This document shows, one piece after another, positions 16,101 to 35,994 of a stretch of 64,000 bases of DNA. The notes under the pieces are model-generated. The model had not been told where the DNA came from. It was given only the letters and a program-made list of their open reading frames with translations, and ran no database searches. The number at the start of each line of letters is the position of its first letter. Position 1 is the first letter of the stretch. A program made the translations under genes and the position numbers. The DNA lies in the NCBI RefSeq assembly GCF_027579695.1, contig NC_083575.1, positions 37,561,154 through 37,625,153 of the forward strand, in the 5' to 3' direction. Source of the DNA: Neoarius graeffei. Lineage: Eukaryota > Chordata > Actinopteri > Siluriformes > Ariidae.

Positions 16101-18736
16101 AACCTACCCCTAAAACTAACCCGAGAGACTAATTCTGAAATTGTTTCCATGGAAACATGAAAAATTAAGAGTTCTTAGTAATGAAAAGGCACATATACAT
16201 CAACTTGTTAACATGTATACTAATAGGCATCCTTCAGTCTCAAGAGACTATGGAGTTGGGCTCTGGCGTTGATTCTGGTACAGTGCCGGGTGTGGCTGGA
16301 CAGGCCGATGTGGGAGTAACAGTCTCACGCACAGAGCACATGAAGTCTGACACTGATCTGTCAAACTGGGCTCGAGCTTTCCTTCTCCATCTTTTTGTCT
16401 GATTCCTGGGCAAATGCCTTTTCAAATGTGGAGAGGCCTTTCTGGACAGTCTGTTTCCAGACTGAGCATTCTGAGGCGGCCACTTCCCAGATGTTGAGGT
16501 CAATGCCCAAGACCTTGATGTCCCTCTTGCAGGTGTCCTTGTAACACAGTTGTGGTCTGCCTATGGGGCGTTTTCCCCTGCACTAACTCACCCTACAGGA
16601 GATCCTTAGGGATCCGACTATCGTCCATATACGTGACATGGCCGAGCCAGCGCATGAGTCTCTGCTTCAGCAGTGCAAACATGCTGGGGATTCCGGCTCC
16701 CTCTAGTACAGCATTGTTTGTGACTTTGTCCTGCTAGGTGATCTTCAAGATGCGTCATAAGCAGCGCATGTGGAAGGTGTTGAGTTTTCGCTCCTGCCAT
16801 GCGCACAGAGTCCAGGACTCACGACCATAAAGGAGGGTGCTCACAACACATGCACTGTAGATATAGATCTTGGCGTGCTTGGTCGTCATCTTGTTCCATG
16901 CTCTCTTCGTCAATTTGGACAGTGGTAGCTGCCTTGCTAATCTGCTTGTTGAGCTCACTGTTAAGCAAGAGGGAGTCTGAGATTGTGGAACCGAGGTAAG
17001 TTCATGGACAACTTCCAGCTCGTGATCAGAGATACTGATGATGGGTGGCAGTTCAGCATCCTGAGCCATGACCTGAGTTTTCTTCAGGCTAATGGTGAGT
17101 AGAGTTGCAAAATTCCGGGAATTTTCAAAGGTGGAAACTTTCCATGGGAATTTTCGGGAAAAGACTGGGAATTTTGAAAGTGGACATCAATTAAGTAAGT
17201 AGAAAAAAGTATTGTAGCATAATTTTGGTTAAAAGAGGCAGATTTATGGGAATAAAGTTGTGCATAGCACACTGTTACTCACTCACATGGACAAAGCATG
17301 TTATTTTCTCAGGAGCCATTGAAGCCACACCCCTTACATGCATTTTGCATCCCTCTATCACATGCATAATAACTTCTAGAATTCTGAAGAGCTAGAACTG
17401 TTTTAAATACAAACTGCCGAGATCACACATTACAGACAAAGGACTACATGCCATCAAGTAAGTTTTGAGGATGTTTGAGGATGATTTTTTATCTATTATG
17501 GTATTTAAGTAAAAATGAAAAGGTATAGTAGAATAAATCTAGTGCTAATTTACTTGTAAATTAGAATTGTGCCATTTCATTGAAGTAGTTAGCTTGTGAT
17601 GCTAGTTACAGCAAATTGTGCTAGCTTAATGGGAAACCAGATAAGCTAAATGAAAGCTTCCTATGAACATTTCATGTAAGAAAACTAAATTTAATGCTAG
17701 CTTACTGGTAAAAATAAATGTAAGATAATTAGAACATTTCATTGAATAAATTCTCATGCTAGCTAGCTACAGCAAAATGTGTTAGTGCTAGTTTAATGGG
17801 ACATCAGATGTGCTAAAATGTTAACTGTGTAAATGTTGTCTCATCTTATTTCACAGAAAAATGCCACGCGTGCTATCCATTGTGTGGAGGCATTTCACAC
17901 CTGTGACGGTAGACAGGAAATCTTTGTTCATGTGCAAATATTGTGCCAAGAAATATGTTAAGAATGCTACGAAAATGCAGAATCATATTTTGCAATGCTC
18001 CAAATGTCCAAAGGCAACAACAAATGCAGCAGGTGAAAATTCATCTATTGCATCAGATTCTTCTGATACCATTTCATCGGTTCCTGGACCCTCAGGCCTC
18101 AGAAGGTACTTTGACTCCATGGATGAGCAAAGGTGAGAAATGCTGATGAATGTTTAGCTCGAGCGATCTATGCAACATCCTCACCTCTGATGTTGTCTGC
18201 CAATGTCTACTGGAAGAGATTTTTTAATGTAATCCAACCAGACATGCACTCCCCCAACCAGACATGCACTATCCACTCATTTACTGGATGAAGAGTACAA
18301 CAGAGTGCAAACAAAGGTTAAACAAACCATCGACAATGCAGACTGCATTTCCATCATCTCTGATAATATATCATCTCATCTCTAGCCGCTTTATCCTTCT
18401 ACAGGGTCGCAGGCAAGCTGGAGCCTATCCTAGCTGACTATGGGCGAAAGGCGGGGTACACCCTGGACAAGTCGCCAGGTCATCACAGGGCTGACACATA
18501 GACACAGACAACCATTCACACTCACATTCACACCTACGGTCAATTTAGAGTCACCAGTCAACCTAACCTGCATGTCTTTGGACTGTGGGGGAAACCGGAG
18601 CACCCGGAGGAAACCCACGCGGACACGGGGAGAACATGCAAACTCCACACAGAAAGGCCCTCGCCAGCCCCGGGGCTCGAACCCAGGACCTTCTTGCTGT
18701 GAGGCGACAGCGCTAACCACTACACCACCGTGCCGC

Positions 18737-18799
<63 letters not shown>

Positions 18800-21700
18800 A
18801 TCCCCTAAATTACCGTAATTCCAGTGCTTTTTTTTTTTTTGAAAATTCCCAAAATTCCCGTAACAAAGTTTCCATGGAAACTTTCCGGAAATTTTCCGCC
18901 CCTTTGCAACCCTAATGGTGAGCCCAAAGTCTCAACAAGCTTTGCTGAAGTGGTTCATGAGCTGCTGAAGGTCATCAGCTGAGTGGACAGTGACTGCTGC
19001 ATCATCTGCAAAGAGGAAGTCACGTAGGCATTTCAGCTGGACTTTGGTCAGTGCTCTTAGCCTGGAGAGACTGAAGAGCTTTCCATCTGATCTGGAGGTA
19101 GATGCCTTCTGTTGCAGAACCAAAAAGCATGCTTCAGCAGTACAGCAAAGATGAGCCCGAAAAGGGTGGGCGACAGTGCTGGAACCATGTGTATTGGCGT
19201 TTGCCTTTCCATTGGAGTATTTCAGTGGCGTGGAGAGAGGGGACTGCTGCATGGGTAACAGCTTGTACTCCATATCAACCTATCCAGGCTTTGCACACCA
19301 GAGAGGACACTCCAGCTTCGCTATGCAGCATCAACAAAACACAGGGGCAAACAGTCTACCAGTTATAAGTCTCGCAGTTCAATCTACATCAACTTGTTAA
19401 CATGTATACCAAGTTTCAAATCCGTATCATGAATAGTTTTGGATATATGCGTCGGAAACGAACATTGCTTTTAGAAACAAAGTCAAAATCCATTTATGTA
19501 AAAAAATTTGAATACTTTTTTTTTCAAAAATCCAAAATAGAAAAAGGCACCAGCTCACATGTTGCTTGAAAAAGTTTCATGAAGATATCTTCAGTAGTTT
19601 TAAAGATATGGCCTGGAAACGAAAACCTGACCGGAGGGACAGAACCCGTTTGGGCAGGGGATAATTAAACTGGCCAGTGAGTGTAGGTATATGTTATGTA
19701 GATGTTATTCAGAGTCTTGTGCCACTGTGGGGGGAAGAAATTTAAAAAAAAAAAAAAAAAAAATTAGTGGAATACCTGAAAGATCTTTTGTAGTTCAGGA
19801 ACCTTGTTAGAGCCCATATACTGGACTGTAGGTCCTGCTTCAGATACCACCTTGGTGGGTAAAGCGAAGATCATGGGGGTGGGTTGTGAGGGCACAGTGG
19901 GTTTCAGCCCCTGAAGGAAAAATAAAATATTGAAATCTTAAAATATAGTCTACAGTGGTGCTTGAAAGTTTCTGAACCCTTTATAATTTTCTATATATTT
20001 ACGCTAGCCTGGCAAGCCAGACTAAATGCGAATATTTAGTCTGGCCTCAATCCGTAGACATTTCCGAAGCGGGTAGGAGGAACAAACCGCTGTCTTTCAA
20101 ACTGTCTCTGTGCGTATAGGCCAACGCTCTGACCAATCAGCGCAACAGTGACTGTGACGTAGTCGGAAAGCAATGGGGGAGGCCTTGAAATTAAATAATT
20201 TTTCAAAATGCGTATTAATTAATAAACAGGTTCTAGATATTAAGAAGTTTGGAGATAATGAACACAAGTTTGGAGTCTGTACCACATACTCATTTTTTTC
20301 CAAGTGTTTTTCAAGAGTTTGCTTAAACTGTTTTTGAGAGTTTATTTAGTGGTGTTTGGTGAAATAATTTCCCTTAAATTTAAAATAACGGGAAAATAAA
20401 CAATCAAAAAGTAATGTTTCAAAGCTGTTTATTAATTCTTCGTACTGCACAAACTAGCCCATCCTTTTGGCTACGAGCGGAGCCAGCTGGTAGATCAGAC
20501 TTTTGCCATAGCCGGTCGGCAAAACAGCGAAAATGTCCTTCTTGAAAAGGAATGAGCGGAGAGCCTCTTCCTGCTCATGTTTCAATGAAAACTCCAAGTC
20601 TAATTCTTCTAAAACTGATTCCAAAGCGGAGTCAAACGCGCGCTGTTCACTAGCTGTAGCCATCTTTCCTGTTGTGCTTTCTCCAGCGTCGCGCAGCTTT
20701 GTCGTCACTCCTGCAAAAGCCTGCCCAAAGAATCCAAACAAAAACCTTGCGTTGTGACTGGCGGGCATGATTTGATGCCCGGGGTGTTTTTGTTTATATG
20801 GTGCAAGGCTAGACCCATTCGCTAGGCAAAAAATATTTTTGGCCGCTAGGCAGTTGGGTCTAGTTTACTAGGCTATATTTATGCAGAAATATGACCTAAA
20901 TCATCAGATTTTCACACAAGTTCTAAAAGTAAATAAAGAGAACCCAGTTAAACAAATGAGACAAAAATATTATACTTGGTCATTTATTTATTGAAGAAAA
21001 TGATCCAATATTACATATCTGTGAGTGGCAAAAGTATGTGAACCTTTGCTTTCAGTATCTGGTGTGACCCCCTTGTGCAGCAATAACTGCAACTAAACGT
21101 TTCCGGTAACTGTTGATCAGTCCTGCACACCAGCTTGGAGGAATTTTAGCCCATTCCTCCGTACAGAACAGCTTCAACTCTGGGATGTTGGTGGGTTTCC
21201 TCACATGAACTGCTCGCTTCAGGTCCTTCCACAACATTTTGACTGGATCAAGGTCAGGACTTTGACTTGGCCATTTCAAAACATTAACTTTATTCTTCTT
21301 TAACCATTCTTTGGTAGAATGACTTGTGTGCTTAGGGTCGTTGTCTTGCTGCATGACCCACCTTCTCTTGAGATTCAGTTCATGGACAGATGTCCTGACA
21401 TTTTCCTTTAGAATTCACTGGTATAATTCAGAATTCATTGTTCCATCAATGATGGCAAGCCGTCCTGGCCCAGATGCAGCAAAATAGGTACAAACCATGA
21501 TACCACCACCACGTTTCACAGATGGGATAAGCTTCTTATGCTGGAATGCAGCGTTTCCCTTTCTCCAAACATAACGCTTCTCATTTAAACCAAAAAGTTC
21601 TACTTTGGTCTCATCCATACACAAAACATCTTTCCAATAGCCTTCTGGCTTGTCCATGTGATCTTTAGCAACTGCAAATGAGCAGCAATGTTCTTTTTGG

Positions 21701-24298
21701 AGAGCAGTGGCTTTCTCCTTGCAACCCTGCCACACACACCATTGTTGTTCAGTGTTCTCCTGATGGCGGACTCATGAACATTAGCCAATGTGAGAGAGGC
21801 CTTCAGTTGCTTAGAAGTTACCCTGGGGTCAGGGCTCTAAATTAACTTTTTTTCTTTGTGTCCCCCAATGGTCCCGAATTATGTGTTGTATTGTCCCAAA
21901 TGGAAGCAATAGTGTCCCCATTTTTTTTCCTCTCTGAAATAACCAGTGGTTAATATTATCATATGAAGTTACTATTATATTTGTAACTATGCGATTTTGA
22001 ACCCTTTATATCATTTTTACAATAAGTCACAAGACACAAGCGACACATGTCCTATACATCATCTACTTCAAAATTACAGTTATTGCATTTTCAGTTTATT
22101 AAACTTTGGTGATCTCACTGTATGAATAGATACCCGTTTATTTAAAGGGGCCAACTAGCTCATTCAGAAAATGTTTCAACTCCCTACATCTGCAGTACAC
22201 TTTAGTTGAAAATAAGACCCCTTTTATGTTCATTTCATCTACTTATACCTTGAATATCTGTTGGCACTTATAAGGCCAACTTATAATTTTCACCATTACC
22301 GTTATCCATTTTTATGAACTTTCCGTTATCCATTACTGTTATCCATTTTATGAACTTTCGCTGCCGAAACGTGGGTGCAAATGTTAGCAACATCAACATA
22401 GTGCCAGGTCCGAGCCTAGTTGTGCTGCTGACTGACTAAACTTTCTGAACTAGAAAGACACCAAGAAAACTCACTTATTCTGTTGAACGGTATCTTCCGT
22501 CAATATCATCCACATCATTCCTGTTGTATTTTATAACGTGTCGAATAGTGTTCATTAAGTTCATTCAGTTGCTAGTGTTGCCTGCAGACCAGGCGATGAC
22601 ACTTTGGATCCTGAAGGTCCCGGAGACGTTATGTCTGGGCTTTCAGTTTCTTCCCCGCGGTCGGTCCGCTTCAACCACTTAAGCATTTTTGTTCTGGCAA
22701 GAGTCGGCGCAGCGTGTGCGGTAGCAATTCCATTCCAAGTCCATATAATGCGGACACCGGCCGAAGATTCTAGAACAGAATGCGCTGCTCTGTAGCCTAC
22801 TGATGCAGGTACATCGAAAGTGTAGCTACTATGTATTTTTCGCTGTTAACGTTTTAAAATTAAAATTGACAAATTAGGTGAATGTCTCCGTATGTGTTAC
22901 GGCTTTGTAAATAATATTAATGTAGAACTTTTTTTCTAGATCTATTTTTTTTCCATTGTCCCGGGATTGTCCCAGATATGATAATTTTGTGTCCCGATGA
23001 CATTTTTTATGGTCCCCAGGACGTCGGGACACCGTTAGTTTCGAGCGCTGCCTGGGGTCCTTTGTGACCTCGCCAACTTTTACACACCTTGCTCTTTGAG
23101 TGATCTTTGTTGGTCGACCACTCCTGGGGAGGGTAACAATGGTCTTGAATTTCCTCCATTTGTACACAATCTGACTGTGGATTGGTGGAGTCCAAACTCT
23201 TTAGAGATGGTTTTGTAACCTTTTCCAGCCTGATGAGCATCAACAACGCTTTTTCTGAGGTCCTCAGAAATCTCCTTTGTTCGTACCATGATACACTTCC
23301 ACAAACGTTGTGAAGATCAGACTTTGATAGATCCTTGTTCTTTAAATAAAACAGGGTGCCCACTCACACCTGATTGTCATCCCATTGATTGAAAACACCT
23401 GACTCTAATTTCACCTTCAAATTAACTGCTAATCCTAGAGGTTCACATACTTTTGCCCCTCACAGATATGTAATATTGGATCATTTTCCTCAATAAATAA
23501 ATGACCAAGGGTAATATTTACGTCTCATTTGTTTAACTGGGTTCTCTTTATCTACTTTTAGGACTTGTGTGAAAATCTGATGTTTTAGGTAATATTTATG
23601 CAGAAATATAGAACATCCTAAAGGGTTCACAGACTTTCAAGCACCACCTTATTTATGCCTATAAATAAAGAAAGGTCAATTGTTAAAACTATTAAGCCCA
23701 CTTTATCTTCTCAGGATGAAAACAAGGTCACTATGGCAGCCCCCAGAGTGATCCACATCAACATGACCCAATAGCAAAGCTCGATACAGCTTAAAAACAT
23801 GAAGCAAGGTTTTTCTGTTCGTCTCCAAGTTTAATTTTACTTACACATTTATCATTTGTACGAACATTTATAATAAGACAGTATTCTTAAGTCTTCTTTA
23901 ATGTAATAAAATCAAATACAGTGTATTGTGCGCCTAACAATCAGATCAATTTCAAAAGCAGATGCACTAAAAGGTTTCCAACACATTTGTCTACAGTACA
24001 CAGCATATTAACTTTATAAACATCGCCATTTCCTCAACTAGACAAACTGAAAGCAACATATAAGCTGTTAAATGCCCCATGTGTTACACTTAACTGAAAA
24101 TATTACAAGCAGCTGTAAGGTTAGCTTGCACCGTTAGCCGCCGGCTACTAAAACCACTTCCTCCGACACAAACCGCAGTGAAGGTCACTTCTACCGACTT
24201 TACAGAATAACCGTCCCCGTGTTTACCTGAGGATAGCAGGCACTCGCCGGTGTAGAACCCGTCAGTTTTCCCGTCACTCCGCTGATTTTGTAGTACAT
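11637..24298 (-). CDS. COX7A2L: Cytochrome c oxidase subunit 7A2-like (SCAF1/COX7RP), three coding exons
   Basis: The coding sequence joins 24298-24227, 19910-19776 and 11780-11637 on the minus strand. Lengths are 72, 135 and 144 bases, both introns are phase 0 with GT/AG borders, and the product is 116 residues (human, as I recall it, 114). The product begins [14 protein letters not shown], continues [20 protein letters not shown] and [11 protein letters not shown], and ends in the COX7A core [23 protein letters not shown] and one membrane helix (about residues 91-110). The family protein bridges complexes III and IV in the inner mitochondrial membrane. The Val-Pro pair in GVPIHLKRG is present; as I recall, a short mouse allele lacks two residues here and is impaired in assembly. 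The gene lies beside KCNG3 in the same orientation, as in human 2p21. It is distinguished from COX7A1/COX7A2 by the long N-terminal part and QKADGVP. The introns (7995 and 4316 bp) are packed with transposons. Confidence 0.96.
12312..12338 (+). repeat. Poly-G tract of 27 G
   Basis: Eleven T followed by 27 consecutive G in COX7A2L intron 2. It has G-quadruplex potential on the plus strand (the non-template strand is C-rich in COX7A2L mRNA sense). The length may be affected by assembly error. Confidence 0.8.
12858..13033. mobile_element. Mariner-type MITE, 176 bp
   Basis: The left end CAGGGTGTCTAAAGTC and right end GACTTTTTGTGCACCCTG are inverted and flanked by TA (12856-12857 and 13034-13035). 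No coding capacity. Confidence 0.75.
13148..13185 (+). repeat. (TG)n(AG)n microsatellite
   Basis: About 13 TG units followed by short AG units in COX7A2L intron 2. Confidence 0.85.
13348..14924 (-). mobile_element. Young Tc1-like transposon, 1577 bp, IR/DR ends
   Basis: The ends CAACCCCGATTC and (inverted) GAATCGGGGTTG are flanked by TA (13346-13347 and 14925-14926). Each arm is about 210 bp and carries the repeat AAAAAAGTTGGGACA twice: outer near 13363 and inner near 13546, mirrored near 14743 and 14898. This is the IR/DR arrangement also used by Sleeping Beauty. It encodes a near-complete transposase on the minus strand. Confidence 0.92.
13569..14591 (-). pseudogene. Tc1-like DD34E transposase with three N-terminal stop codons
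   Basis: From ATG at 14591 ([17 protein letters not shown]) the same frame runs to the stop at 13569, 340 codons. It is interrupted only at codons 18 (TAA), 20 (TAG) and 24 (TGA). The uninterrupted part (from 14519 on) holds the second helix-turn-helix ([14 protein letters not shown]), a GRK basic motif (RKGQGRKT), the catalytic aspartates in WSDESKF (codon 154) and [10 protein letters not shown] (codon 244), and the glutamate in [11 protein letters not shown] (codon 279), spaced DD34E. Family role: cut-and-paste transposition at TA. As it stands the N-terminal DNA-binding helix cannot be made from the ATG, so the copy is inactive unless translation starts downstream. Confidence 0.88.
14966..15320 (-). 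mobile_element. tRNA-derived V-SINE-like element
   Basis: Flanked by the exact 14-bp duplication CACTTCAAACATCA (14952-14965 and 15321-15334). Inserted in the old Tc1-like fossil. Confidence 0.9.
15556..15682. mobile_element. Small foldback MITE
   Basis: GGGTGAGTTTCCCCAAAAGC at the left and GCTTTTGGGAAACCCACCC at the right are inverted, enclosing about 90 bases. CCA occurs on both flanks. Superfamily not assigned. Confidence 0.5.
17861..18136 (+). pseudogene. BED-type zinc finger N-terminus of a hAT transposase
   Basis: 91 residues beginning [20 protein letters not shown], with [22 protein letters not shown]: Cys-x2-Cys and His-x4-Cys spacing of a BED finger, which binds transposon ends. 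After the stop a shifted frame gives [20 protein letters not shown], typical hAT transposase sequence, up to the SINE at 18370. The catalytic part is absent. Confidence 0.75.
18370..18736 (-). mobile_element. tRNA-derived V-SINE-like element inside the hAT element
   Basis: Full-length body and head. The right side runs into a (TA)n tract, which blurs the target duplication. Confidence 0.85.
18740..18792 (+). repeat. (TA)n microsatellite
   Basis: About 25 TA units directly next to a SINE head. Confidence 0.9.
19776..19910 (-). CDS. COX7A2L: COX7A2L coding exon 2
   Basis: This exon encodes 45 residues from GLKPTVPSQ to [11 protein letters not shown]. The acceptor is TTCCTTCAG|GGG and the donor is TTTCAG|GTATTC, so the exon is phase 0 at both ends. 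It is too short to show as an open reading frame of note and was found by searching upstream of the terminal exon. It sits 42 bp from the start of a Tc1 element that fills intron 1. Confidence 0.95.
20002..20873 (-). mobile_element. DNA element with RecQ-helicase fragment, inserted in the Tc1 element
   Basis: An 8-bp direct repeat TATATTTA (19994-20001 and 20874-20881) flanks the block. The ends are imperfectly inverted: AGCCTGGCAAGCCAGACT at the left against GCCTAGTAAACTAGACCC (right end, inverted). The 8-bp duplication would suit hAT or P-type elements; the superfamily is not settled. It contains a helicase-like ORF. Confidence 0.65.
20454..20768 (-). pseudogene. RecQ-type DNA helicase N-terminal fragment in a transposon
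   Basis: 104 residues. The likely real start is an internal methionine ([20 protein letters not shown]). The end holds a RecQ-like ATPase start: [19 protein letters not shown], then [20 protein letters not shown] with the Walker A motif PTGYGKS. A stop follows after KRMG, so all other helicase motifs are missing. Whether this is a captured host exon or the first exon of a longer transposon gene cannot be told here. Confidence 0.7.
21052..21788 (-). pseudogene. Broken Tc1 transposase (C-terminal two thirds)
   Basis: Frames at 21052-21354 ([27 protein letters not shown]) and 21415-21788 ([23 protein letters not shown]) match the transposase at 34146-35168. The catalytic glutamate of the DD34E triad reads lysine (DPVKMLW for NPIEMLW). 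Frameshifts lie between the pieces. The N-terminal third lies beyond the hAT insertion at 23080-23304. Confidence 0.8.
21830..23050. mobile_element. Non-autonomous hAT element, 1221 bp
   Basis: The ends CAGGGCTCTAAATTAAC and (inverted) GTTAGTTTCGAGCGCTG are flanked by the exact 8-bp duplication CCTGGGGT (21822-21829 and 23051-23058). Both the CAGNGCTC start and the 8-bp duplication are hAT hallmarks. No transposase motif seen. A GC-rich segment near 22590-22800 differs from the AT-rich arms. Confidence 0.88.
24227..24298 (-). CDS. COX7A2L: COX7A2L coding exon 1
   Basis: This exon encodes 24 residues starting [14 protein letters not shown] and ending CYPQ. The ATG is at 24298-24296 and matches the start of the vertebrate protein. 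The donor reads CAG|GTAAAC and phase is 0. A longer open frame on the same strand (24344-24090) is in another frame and has no family similarity. Confidence 0.94.
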
Positions 24299-33740: not shown

Positions 33741-33928
33741 AATCCAACCATTAATTGAAATAAATTTATTCAGAGAAAAAACAAATCCTTCATCAAGAAA
33801 TAATTATTTTCAATAAACATGTGTCACTATTATTGGCACCCCTGCATTTAATATTTTGTACAACCTTCCTTTGCCAGTAAAATAGCACTCATCTCTACAA
33901 GGCATGCCTATAATCATGGCAGGCATGA

Positions 33929-35530
33929 CAGTGGTGCTTGAAAGTTTGTGAACCCTTTAGAATTTTCTATATTTCTGCATAAATATGACCTAAAACATCA
34001 GATTTTCACACAAGTCCTAAAAGTAGATAAAGAGAACCCAGTTAAACAAATGAGACAAAAATTTTAGACTTGGTCATTTATTGATTGAGGAAAATGATCC
34101 AATATTACATACCTGTGAGTAGCAAAAGTATGTGAGCCTTTGCTTTCAGTATCTTGTGTGACCCCCTTGTGCAGCAATAACTGCAACTAAACGTTTCCGG
34201 TTACTGTTGATCAGTCCTGCACACTGGCTTGGAGGAATTTTAGCCCATTCGTCTGTACAGAACAGCTTCAACTCTGGGATGTTGGTAGGTTTCCTTACAT
34301 GAATTGCTTGCTTCAGGTCCTTCCACAACATTTCAATTGGATTAAGGTCAGGGCTTTGACTTGGCCATTCCAAAACATGAACTTTATTCTTCTTTAACCA
34401 TTCTTTGGTAGAATGACTTGTGGGCTTAGGGTTGTTGTCTTGCTGCATGACCCACCTTCTCTTGAGATTCAGTTCATGGACAGATGTCCTGACATTTTCC
34501 TTTAGAATTTGCTGGTATAATTCAGAATTCATTGTTCCATCAGTGACGGCAAGCCGTCCTGGCCCAGATGCAGCAAAACAGGCCCAAACCATGATACTAC
34601 CACCACCATGTTTCACAGATGGGATAAGCTTCTTATGCTGGAATGCAGTGTTTTCCTTTCTCCAAACATAACGCTTCTCATTTAAACCAAAAAGTTCTAT
34701 TTTGGTCTCATCCATCCACAAAACATTTTTCCAATAGCCTTCTGGCTTGTCCATGTGATCCTTAGCAAACTGCAGATGAGCAGTAATGTTCTTTTTGGAG
34801 AGCAGTGGCTTTCTCCTTGCAACCCTGCCATGCACATCATTGTTGTTCAGTGTTCTCCTGATGGTGGACTCATGAACATTAACATTAGCCAATCTGAGAG
34901 AGGCCTTCAGTTGCTTAGAAGTTACCCTGGGGTCCTTTGTGACCTCGCCGACTATTACACACCTTGCTCTTGGAGTGATCTTTGTTGGTCGACCACTCCT
35001 GGAGAGGGTAACAATGGTCTTGAATTTCCTCCATTTGTACACAATCTATCTGACTGTGGATTGGTGGAGTCCAAACTCTTTAGTGATGGTTTTGTAACCT
35101 TTTCCAGCTTGATGAGCATCAACAATGCTTTTTCTGAGGTCCTCAGAAATCTCCTTTGTTCGTGCCATGATACACTTCCACAAACATGTGTTGTGAAGAA
35201 CAGACTTTGATAGATCCCTGTTCTTTAAATAAAACAGGGCGCCCACTCACACCTGATTGTGATCCCATTTATTAAAACGCCTGACTCTAATTTCACCTTC
35301 AAATTAAGTGCTAATTCTAGAGGTTCATATACTTTTGCCACTCACAGATATGTAATATTGGATCATTTTCCTCAATAAATAAATGACCAAGTATAATATT
35401 TTTGTCTCATTTAACGTGGTTCTCTTTATCTTCTTTTAGGACTTGTGTGAAAATCTGATGATGTGTTACGTCATATTTATGCAGAAATATAGAAAATTCT
35501 AAAGGGTTCACAAACTTTCAAGCACCATTG
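33929..35530 (-). mobile_element. Young Tc1-like transposon, 1602 bp, near-complete
   Basis: The ends CAGTGGTGCTTGAAAGTTTG and its inverse (right end CAAACTTTCAAGCACCATTG) span arms of about 210 bp. The inner repeats of AAAAGTATGTGA type near 34127 and 35330 give an IR/DR layout. TA follows the right end (35531-35532); the left flank reads GA, probably mutated. The minus-strand transposase has a single premature stop. Confidence 0.92.
34146..35168 (-). pseudogene. Tc1-like DD34E transposase with one amber codon
   Basis: From ATG at 35168 ([20 protein letters not shown]) one frame of 340 codons runs to the stop at 34146, interrupted only by TAG at 35048-35046 (codon 41, in STVR-stop-IVYKW, between the two helix-turn-helix units). 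The DNA-binding part includes the GRPTK hook ([10 protein letters not shown]). Catalytic residues are D153 (WMDETK), D244 (QQDNNPKP) and E279 (NPIEMLW), positions identical to those I recall for Sleeping Beauty. QQDNNPKPTS differs from the usual [10 protein letters not shown] at two sites next to D244. Likely inactive, but very recently so. Confidence 0.9.
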
Positions 35531-35994
35531 TATATGGGTATGATGGTCAGGTGTCCACATACTTTTGGGCATATAGTGTACTTGTACTGTGTCCCAAAGC
35601 ATATTCTAATGTACTTTTGGTGTCATTATTATTTCGATACACTACTTATTGTGTAGTATGCGGTTTGTGATACAGCCTTGAACTCTCTCCATATGTGTAC
35701 TGACACATTAGGTGTTTTTTTTTCCCTATCAGAAACAGTTTTAAAATCTTACATCTAGCACCTTTAAATTATGATTAAAATAAATTCTGAAAGATTTTTT
35801 TGAACATAAATTAGCAAAAGTTATTAAAGAGAGTTAAGTTTCCTAAGTAAATATATGGCAGTCATTTTATAATCTAAGGGGGAAAAAAACAAAACAGAAT
35901 TTTGTGCACACAACCAAATACCAAATGCCATACCCTTCCCACCATTACCACAACATTTCTACCTAATCTTCCGCATAACCATTTCTTACAGTAT

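Follow-up and report, generated by a model that had tools for sequence, protein, structure and literature searches.

How did the start of a RecQ-like helicase gene come to lie inside a Tc1-type transposon? The question is raised by a small block of DNA in a stretch of 64,000 nucleotides of the Neoarius graeffei genome (NC_083575.1, positions 37,561,154 to 37,625,153; hereafter the window, 40% G+C). An initial annotation, made from the letters alone, had proposed two answers: either the block captured a host exon, or it is a short derivative of a larger transposon that encodes its own helicase. We searched the genome (2.34 Gb in 38 contigs, numbered here C1, C2 and so on, with the window at C7:37561154-37625153) and found that the second proposal holds up well, through ends that recur and three long copies that carry both genes. 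We conclude, with a probability of roughly 0.88, that the block is one of about 2,750 short non-autonomous copies of a helicase-bearing transposon whose best-fitting known group is AcademH.

Alignment with Tc1 ends found elsewhere in the window (at 33928 in forward orientation, and at 23647 and 35532 in reverse) places the insertion at 20005-20875, a length of 871 bp. The block first proposed at 20002..20873 is thus real, but its edges were a few bases off. The flanks form a 9-bp duplication, TATTTACGC on the left and TATTTATGC on the right, with one mismatch between them. The 8-bp repeat noticed initially, TATATTTA, does occur at 19994-20001 and 20874-20881, but an 8-bp duplication had to be rejected because the Tc1 sister copies, like 25 of 25 copies of the element, agree with 9 bp. 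The block is composed as follows.

19996..20004, no strand: left target-site duplication TATTTACGC (9 bp), read against the Tc1 sister copies as empty site
20005..20875, minus strand (that of the helicase fragment): block of 871 bp, read as a non-autonomous, internally deleted copy of the helicase transposon
20005..20022, plus strand: terminal inverted repeat at the transposase-gene end, TAGCCTGGCAAGCCAGAC
20005..20182: part homologous to the long copies at their transposase-gene end (alignments of 163-178 bp, depending on the copy)
20183..20457: interior of the short copies, without counterpart in the long copies compared
20454..20663, minus strand: truncated RecQ-like helicase open reading frame, 69 amino acids and a stop, ending at the deletion junction
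20458..20875, minus strand: part homologous to the long copies at their helicase-gene end (418 bp, identity 93.5-94.3%)
20858..20875, minus strand: terminal inverted repeat at the helicase-gene end, TAGCCTAGTAAACTAGAC in minus-strand reading
20876..20884, no strand: right target-site duplication TATTTATGC (9 bp), read from the flanks and other element copies

The inverted ends, already described as imperfect in the initial annotation, are 18 bases long with 14 identical, and TAGCCT forms both termini of the window copy. In a random control, 15 of 2000 pairs scored equally well. The inverted ends of the window copy are not compelling by themselves; their recurrence at other sites is. The terminal inverted repeats return elsewhere in the family, some copies differing by single bases.

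That the ends recur as a family, a check proposed at the outset, is borne out by 25 copies in which both ends were located and by the abundance of the interior. A genome search with the block as query returned 2618 first-look candidates; 40 of these were scored, and all 40 matched. These matches extend in 38 cases from query base 1-6 to 871-872, measure 880-884 bp in 37 cases (most sister copies are about 884 bp long), and are 95-96% identical to the block, the window copy itself excepted. A 33-mer marker, taken from the interior part that the long copies lack, matched the genome 1328 + 1426 = 2754 times at no more than two mismatches, and the reversed control gave 0 matches. Some of these matches lie in duplicated segments: three pairs of short copies on C1 have common outer flanks. 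Such pairs, 2.1 kb apart (loci L054, L055 and L056), were considered as a composite transposon and rejected as such, because their outer flanks are shared (about 97% identical) and the pairs are hence duplicated segments.

Divergence within the short family was read against a majority sequence of the eight short copies that best match the window copy. Seven of them differ from it by 0.57-1.02% and the window copy by 1.72%, figures biased downwards by the choice of best matches, and the short copies in L054-L056 are more divergent (94.1-95.9% identical to the same majority). The low divergence of some copies suggests recent movement, subject to that bias. Further derivatives of 1037-1261 bp retain more of the helicase start. 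Among the derivatives, those of 1169 and 1150 bp (L019, L021 and L022; L030 and L036) show the same target duplications at several places, and were probably copied together with their surroundings.

Target duplications were compared in the 25 copies with both ends located. In all 25 the nine bases on either side are the same or nearly so (18 exactly, 7 with one mismatch). The second copy in L054 was dropped from this count since its right end was not located, and the 14 short copies counted include five from duplicated segments. The duplications represent 19 independent sites, while only 5 of 20000 random pairs were as good. Their sequence varies among copies, and TTAA duplications were not seen.

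Long copies were reached through a genome search with the RecQ profile TIGR00614 followed by comparison of the loci. Three of them have the same two ends as the block, on C1 (9603 bp), C2 (10469 bp) and C20 (15913 bp), and each is flanked by an exact 9-bp duplication of its own. On the helicase strand, a first open stretch of 207-226 amino acids matches DEAD (E 8.2e-16 in the C1 copy), and a second one, of 410 amino acids in the C1 and C2 copies, matches Helicase_C (E 8.6e-17 in the C1 copy). We take the gap of about 0.9 kb between them for an intron region. On the opposite strand, the C2 copy holds a Cys-rich N-terminal piece (matching zf-AD below its cut-off), middle pieces, and a 314-amino-acid piece matching DUF6589 (E 4.6e-24). 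The helicase and transposase-like genes are convergent. The Tc1-type domain DDE_3 gave no match among the seven frames of the long copies scanned, which returned DEAD, Helicase_C and DUF6589.

Comparison of the two genes across the genome shows that they occur together. The 410-amino-acid helicase piece gave 29 candidates, all of them scored, and 14 matches: four at the long copies, six at a second lineage and four at host-like exons. The 314-amino-acid transposase-like piece gave 20 candidates, again all scored, and nine matches, seven at the same six loci and two as fragments elsewhere. The helicase and the transposase-like gene hence co-occur at 6 of 6 loci, three in this family (the long copies) and three in the second lineage. 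The initial annotation had looked to many long copies with a complete helicase; taken literally this is not borne out, as only three loci of each were found. A candidate catalytic D (LDNLDF) and a candidate E (LHLEHLN) are conserved between the two lineages, and a candidate second D lies in a stretch that is unaligned. Nonsynonymous and synonymous divergence (dN and dS) were 0.015 and 0.026 for the 410-amino-acid piece (C1 against C2 copy), and 0.018 and 0.058 for the 314-amino-acid piece (C2 against C20 copy); both ratios are below 1, and are given here without a significance test.

The second lineage lies at C20:1.57M, C2:109.88M and C13:31.23M, with helicase pieces 50-65% identical (54-55% for the longest three). 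Its ends were found where the copies cease aligning with each other, which located both ends in three of five stretches, namely the long copy on C2 and two short ones, on C6 and on C17. Five of the six ends located read TAGCCTGG and the sixth TAGTCTGG. The 9-bp flanks are exact in the C2 and C6 copies and, read by eye, differ by one mismatch in the third.

The fragment in the window can now be compared with its source. As first annotated, it is the start of a RecQ-like ATPase with the motif PTGYGKS, followed by a stop: the minus-strand frame at 20457-20663 begins MATASEQ and encodes 69 amino acids, with its stop at 20454-20456. In Pfam, the frame taken from stop to stop matches DEAD best, though below the cut-off of that family (E 4.8e-5; 23.6 bits against 26), and the best PDB matches of the 69 amino acids are the RecQ helicases Q5 and BLM (E around 8e-4). 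The long copies continue the helicase frame past the end of the fragment. Homology to them starts at 20458, and therefore the frame ends where the deletion begins.

This origin has to be weighed against the capture and spread of a host RecQ exon by a DNA transposon. The 69 amino acids do resemble RecQ5 and BLM, and they do sit in a short element, as a captured exon might. But long copies with the same ends have both helicase domains together with the transposase-like gene, and the second lineage has them likewise. Furthermore, the tree of the helicase with host RecQ, another check proposed at the outset, was run on the motif V-VI core, and it splits six transposon helicases from four host RecQ exons and Escherichia coli RecQ with a branch support of 100/100. 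The four exons, on C6, C16, C22 and C26, are presumably host genes to judge by exon layout and sequence; one further host RecQ locus, on C21, is not in the tree for want of its matching exon. Identity over the same core is 35-48% between transposon helicases and host exons and 30-36% between transposon helicases and E. coli RecQ, whereas the host exons reach 54-68% with E. coli RecQ and 56-75% among themselves. Since the transposon helicases stand apart from the host exons in the tree, and since the long copies exist, recent capture of a host exon was rejected, and we regard this first proposal of the initial annotation as having next to no chance of being right. Of eight inner branches of the tree one is starred and six are open, and for this reason we say nothing on the order inside the groups. 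A separate possibility is that the fragment has been kept as a functional peptide, for instance as a dominant-negative regulator of the helicase. The window copy has the frame open, as do L002 and L003, two of the first seven further short copies compared. Among 14 short copies, however, nine have no ATG-initiated frame that holds PTGYGKS, while three have the 69-amino-acid frame and two a longer one (81 and 86 amino acids), and the fragment therefore shows no sign of being kept. Three short copies (L004, L007 and L008) have the same frame break, so that broken copies spread too. A retained peptide is very improbable, and the fragment itself probably does nothing.

If the block is a short derivative of a helicase-bearing transposon, its parent still has to be placed among known groups. 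AcademH is reportedly a helicase-encoding Academ lineage of animals and fungi, going by the title of a paper by Kojima in 2020 (Mob DNA 11:15). Short terminal inverted repeats are a feature of the group; those of the family described here are imperfect and 18 bp long. Like this family, AcademH combines a helicase with a transposase-like gene in a DNA transposon. According to PMC10045372, AcademH target duplications are 9 or 10 bp long, compared with the 9 bp found in 25 of 25 copies here, and those of AcademX 3 or 4 bp, a difference that the same text says seems tied to the encoded helicase or nuclease. AcademH is the best-fitting group and likely the right name for the family, which is likely a new member of that group and may already be catalogued in Repbase or Dfam. 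The machinery that the initial annotation called unusual is fairly so described, but such elements are already known as AcademH. Alternatively, the parent could belong to another helicase-encoding group, such as an animal KolobokH-like lineage, or to an unnamed superfamily. The Pfam match of the transposase-like protein is to DUF6589 and its place in Academ is putative, which leaves room for this view. On the other hand, Kolobok elements duplicate TTAA, whereas the 25 copies here carry 9 bp of varied sequence. According to PMC9587614, KolobokH is a DNA transposon with a RecQ helicase, as is the family described here, and Kolobok-1_CCri encodes its RecQ helicase on the complementary strand; the same paper reports KolobokH from fungi only. 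We consider a parent outside AcademH unlikely. Two more groups are readily told apart from the family. Tc1/mariner elements have a TA target duplication and a Tc1-type transposase, while the nested block has 9-bp duplications and its long copies are without DDE_3 in the frames scanned. Helitrons are not known to have inverted ends or target duplications. The family differs from them in having both, the duplications being of 9 bp, and in pairing a RecQ-like helicase with a DUF6589 protein. Helitrons are described in PMC12730594 as eukaryotic transposons with a helicase and an HUH nuclease.

Several results weigh against the assignment of the block to a helicase-bearing transposon of the AcademH group. 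DUF6589 is a Pfam family of unknown function whose link to Academ is presumptive, and the literature searched does not name it. The tree has 85 columns, one row less than half filled, and a midpoint root. Positions 144-162 of TIGR00614, which fall between the two helicase pieces, were not located in the loci compared. The transposase-like frame of the C1 copy and the helicase frame of the C20 copy are broken, and the long copies are putatively functional at best. No source of the interior segment of about 280 bp was found among 53 loci (short copies apart), the genome-wide search having covered the short family only; the segment may have been gained when the deletion formed. Finally, a blind search of the second lineage for inverted ends with duplications returned nothing credible, and in a chance control 37 of 2000 trials of the same size at random places gave a 9-bp match. 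As a consequence, its ends are supportive and not decisive.

The helicase-transposon origin suggests the following mechanism. The long form encodes a RecQ-like superfamily 2 helicase, and a transposase-like DUF6589 protein runs towards it on the opposite strand. The short form arose when a long copy lost about 9 kb of its interior. It kept both termini, the first 69 helicase codons and at most about 180 bp from the transposase end, and between these retained ends it now holds about 280 bp not found in the long copies. The transposase from a long copy may recognize the TAGCCT ends in trans and move the short form by cut-and-paste, inserting it through cuts staggered by 9 bp. The helicase might open or process DNA at the ends, either during cutting or during gap repair. 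Copies number about 2,750 short against 3 long. It is tempting to propose that the family was recently mobile, that a few helicase-bearing copies drove thousands of short ones, and that their own RecQ-like helicase was required and sets the 9-bp stagger; we put this forward tentatively, as a proposal more doubtful than not.

The placement of the block inside a Tc1 element, made in the initial annotation, is supported by DDE_3 matches, one above and one below the Pfam cut-off, and by a window copy at 33928 that is uninterrupted at this position. This sister copy (33928-35532, about 93% identical) is without the insertions and serves as the empty-site control. The surrounding element is as follows.

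19953..23650, minus strand: Tc1-type element, edges approximate, which also carries a hAT-like insertion

This other insertion in the same Tc1 copy lies at 21830-23050, with an 8-bp duplication CCTGGGGT and ends CAGGGCTCTAAATTAAC and, inverted, CAGCGCTCGAAACTAAC; we take it to be hAT-like. A repeat of about 330 bp, present at 18378-18695, recurs at other places of the window: a comparison with locus L054 gave 19 aligned pieces, of which 14 are at least 290 bp long.

The helicase-transposon origin accounts for puzzling RecQ fragments in a repeat-rich animal genome, which would be remnants of a shrunken helicase transposon and not pieces of a host repair gene. Such fragments should be masked before RecQ genes are counted. 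If the tentative proposal of a helicase requirement is true, the family would move by cut-and-paste in a way that depends on a helicase of its own, and its ends make that dependence testable. Its long copies, its thousands of short ones and its clean 9-bp duplications make it suited to studying the part that a helicase plays in transposition.
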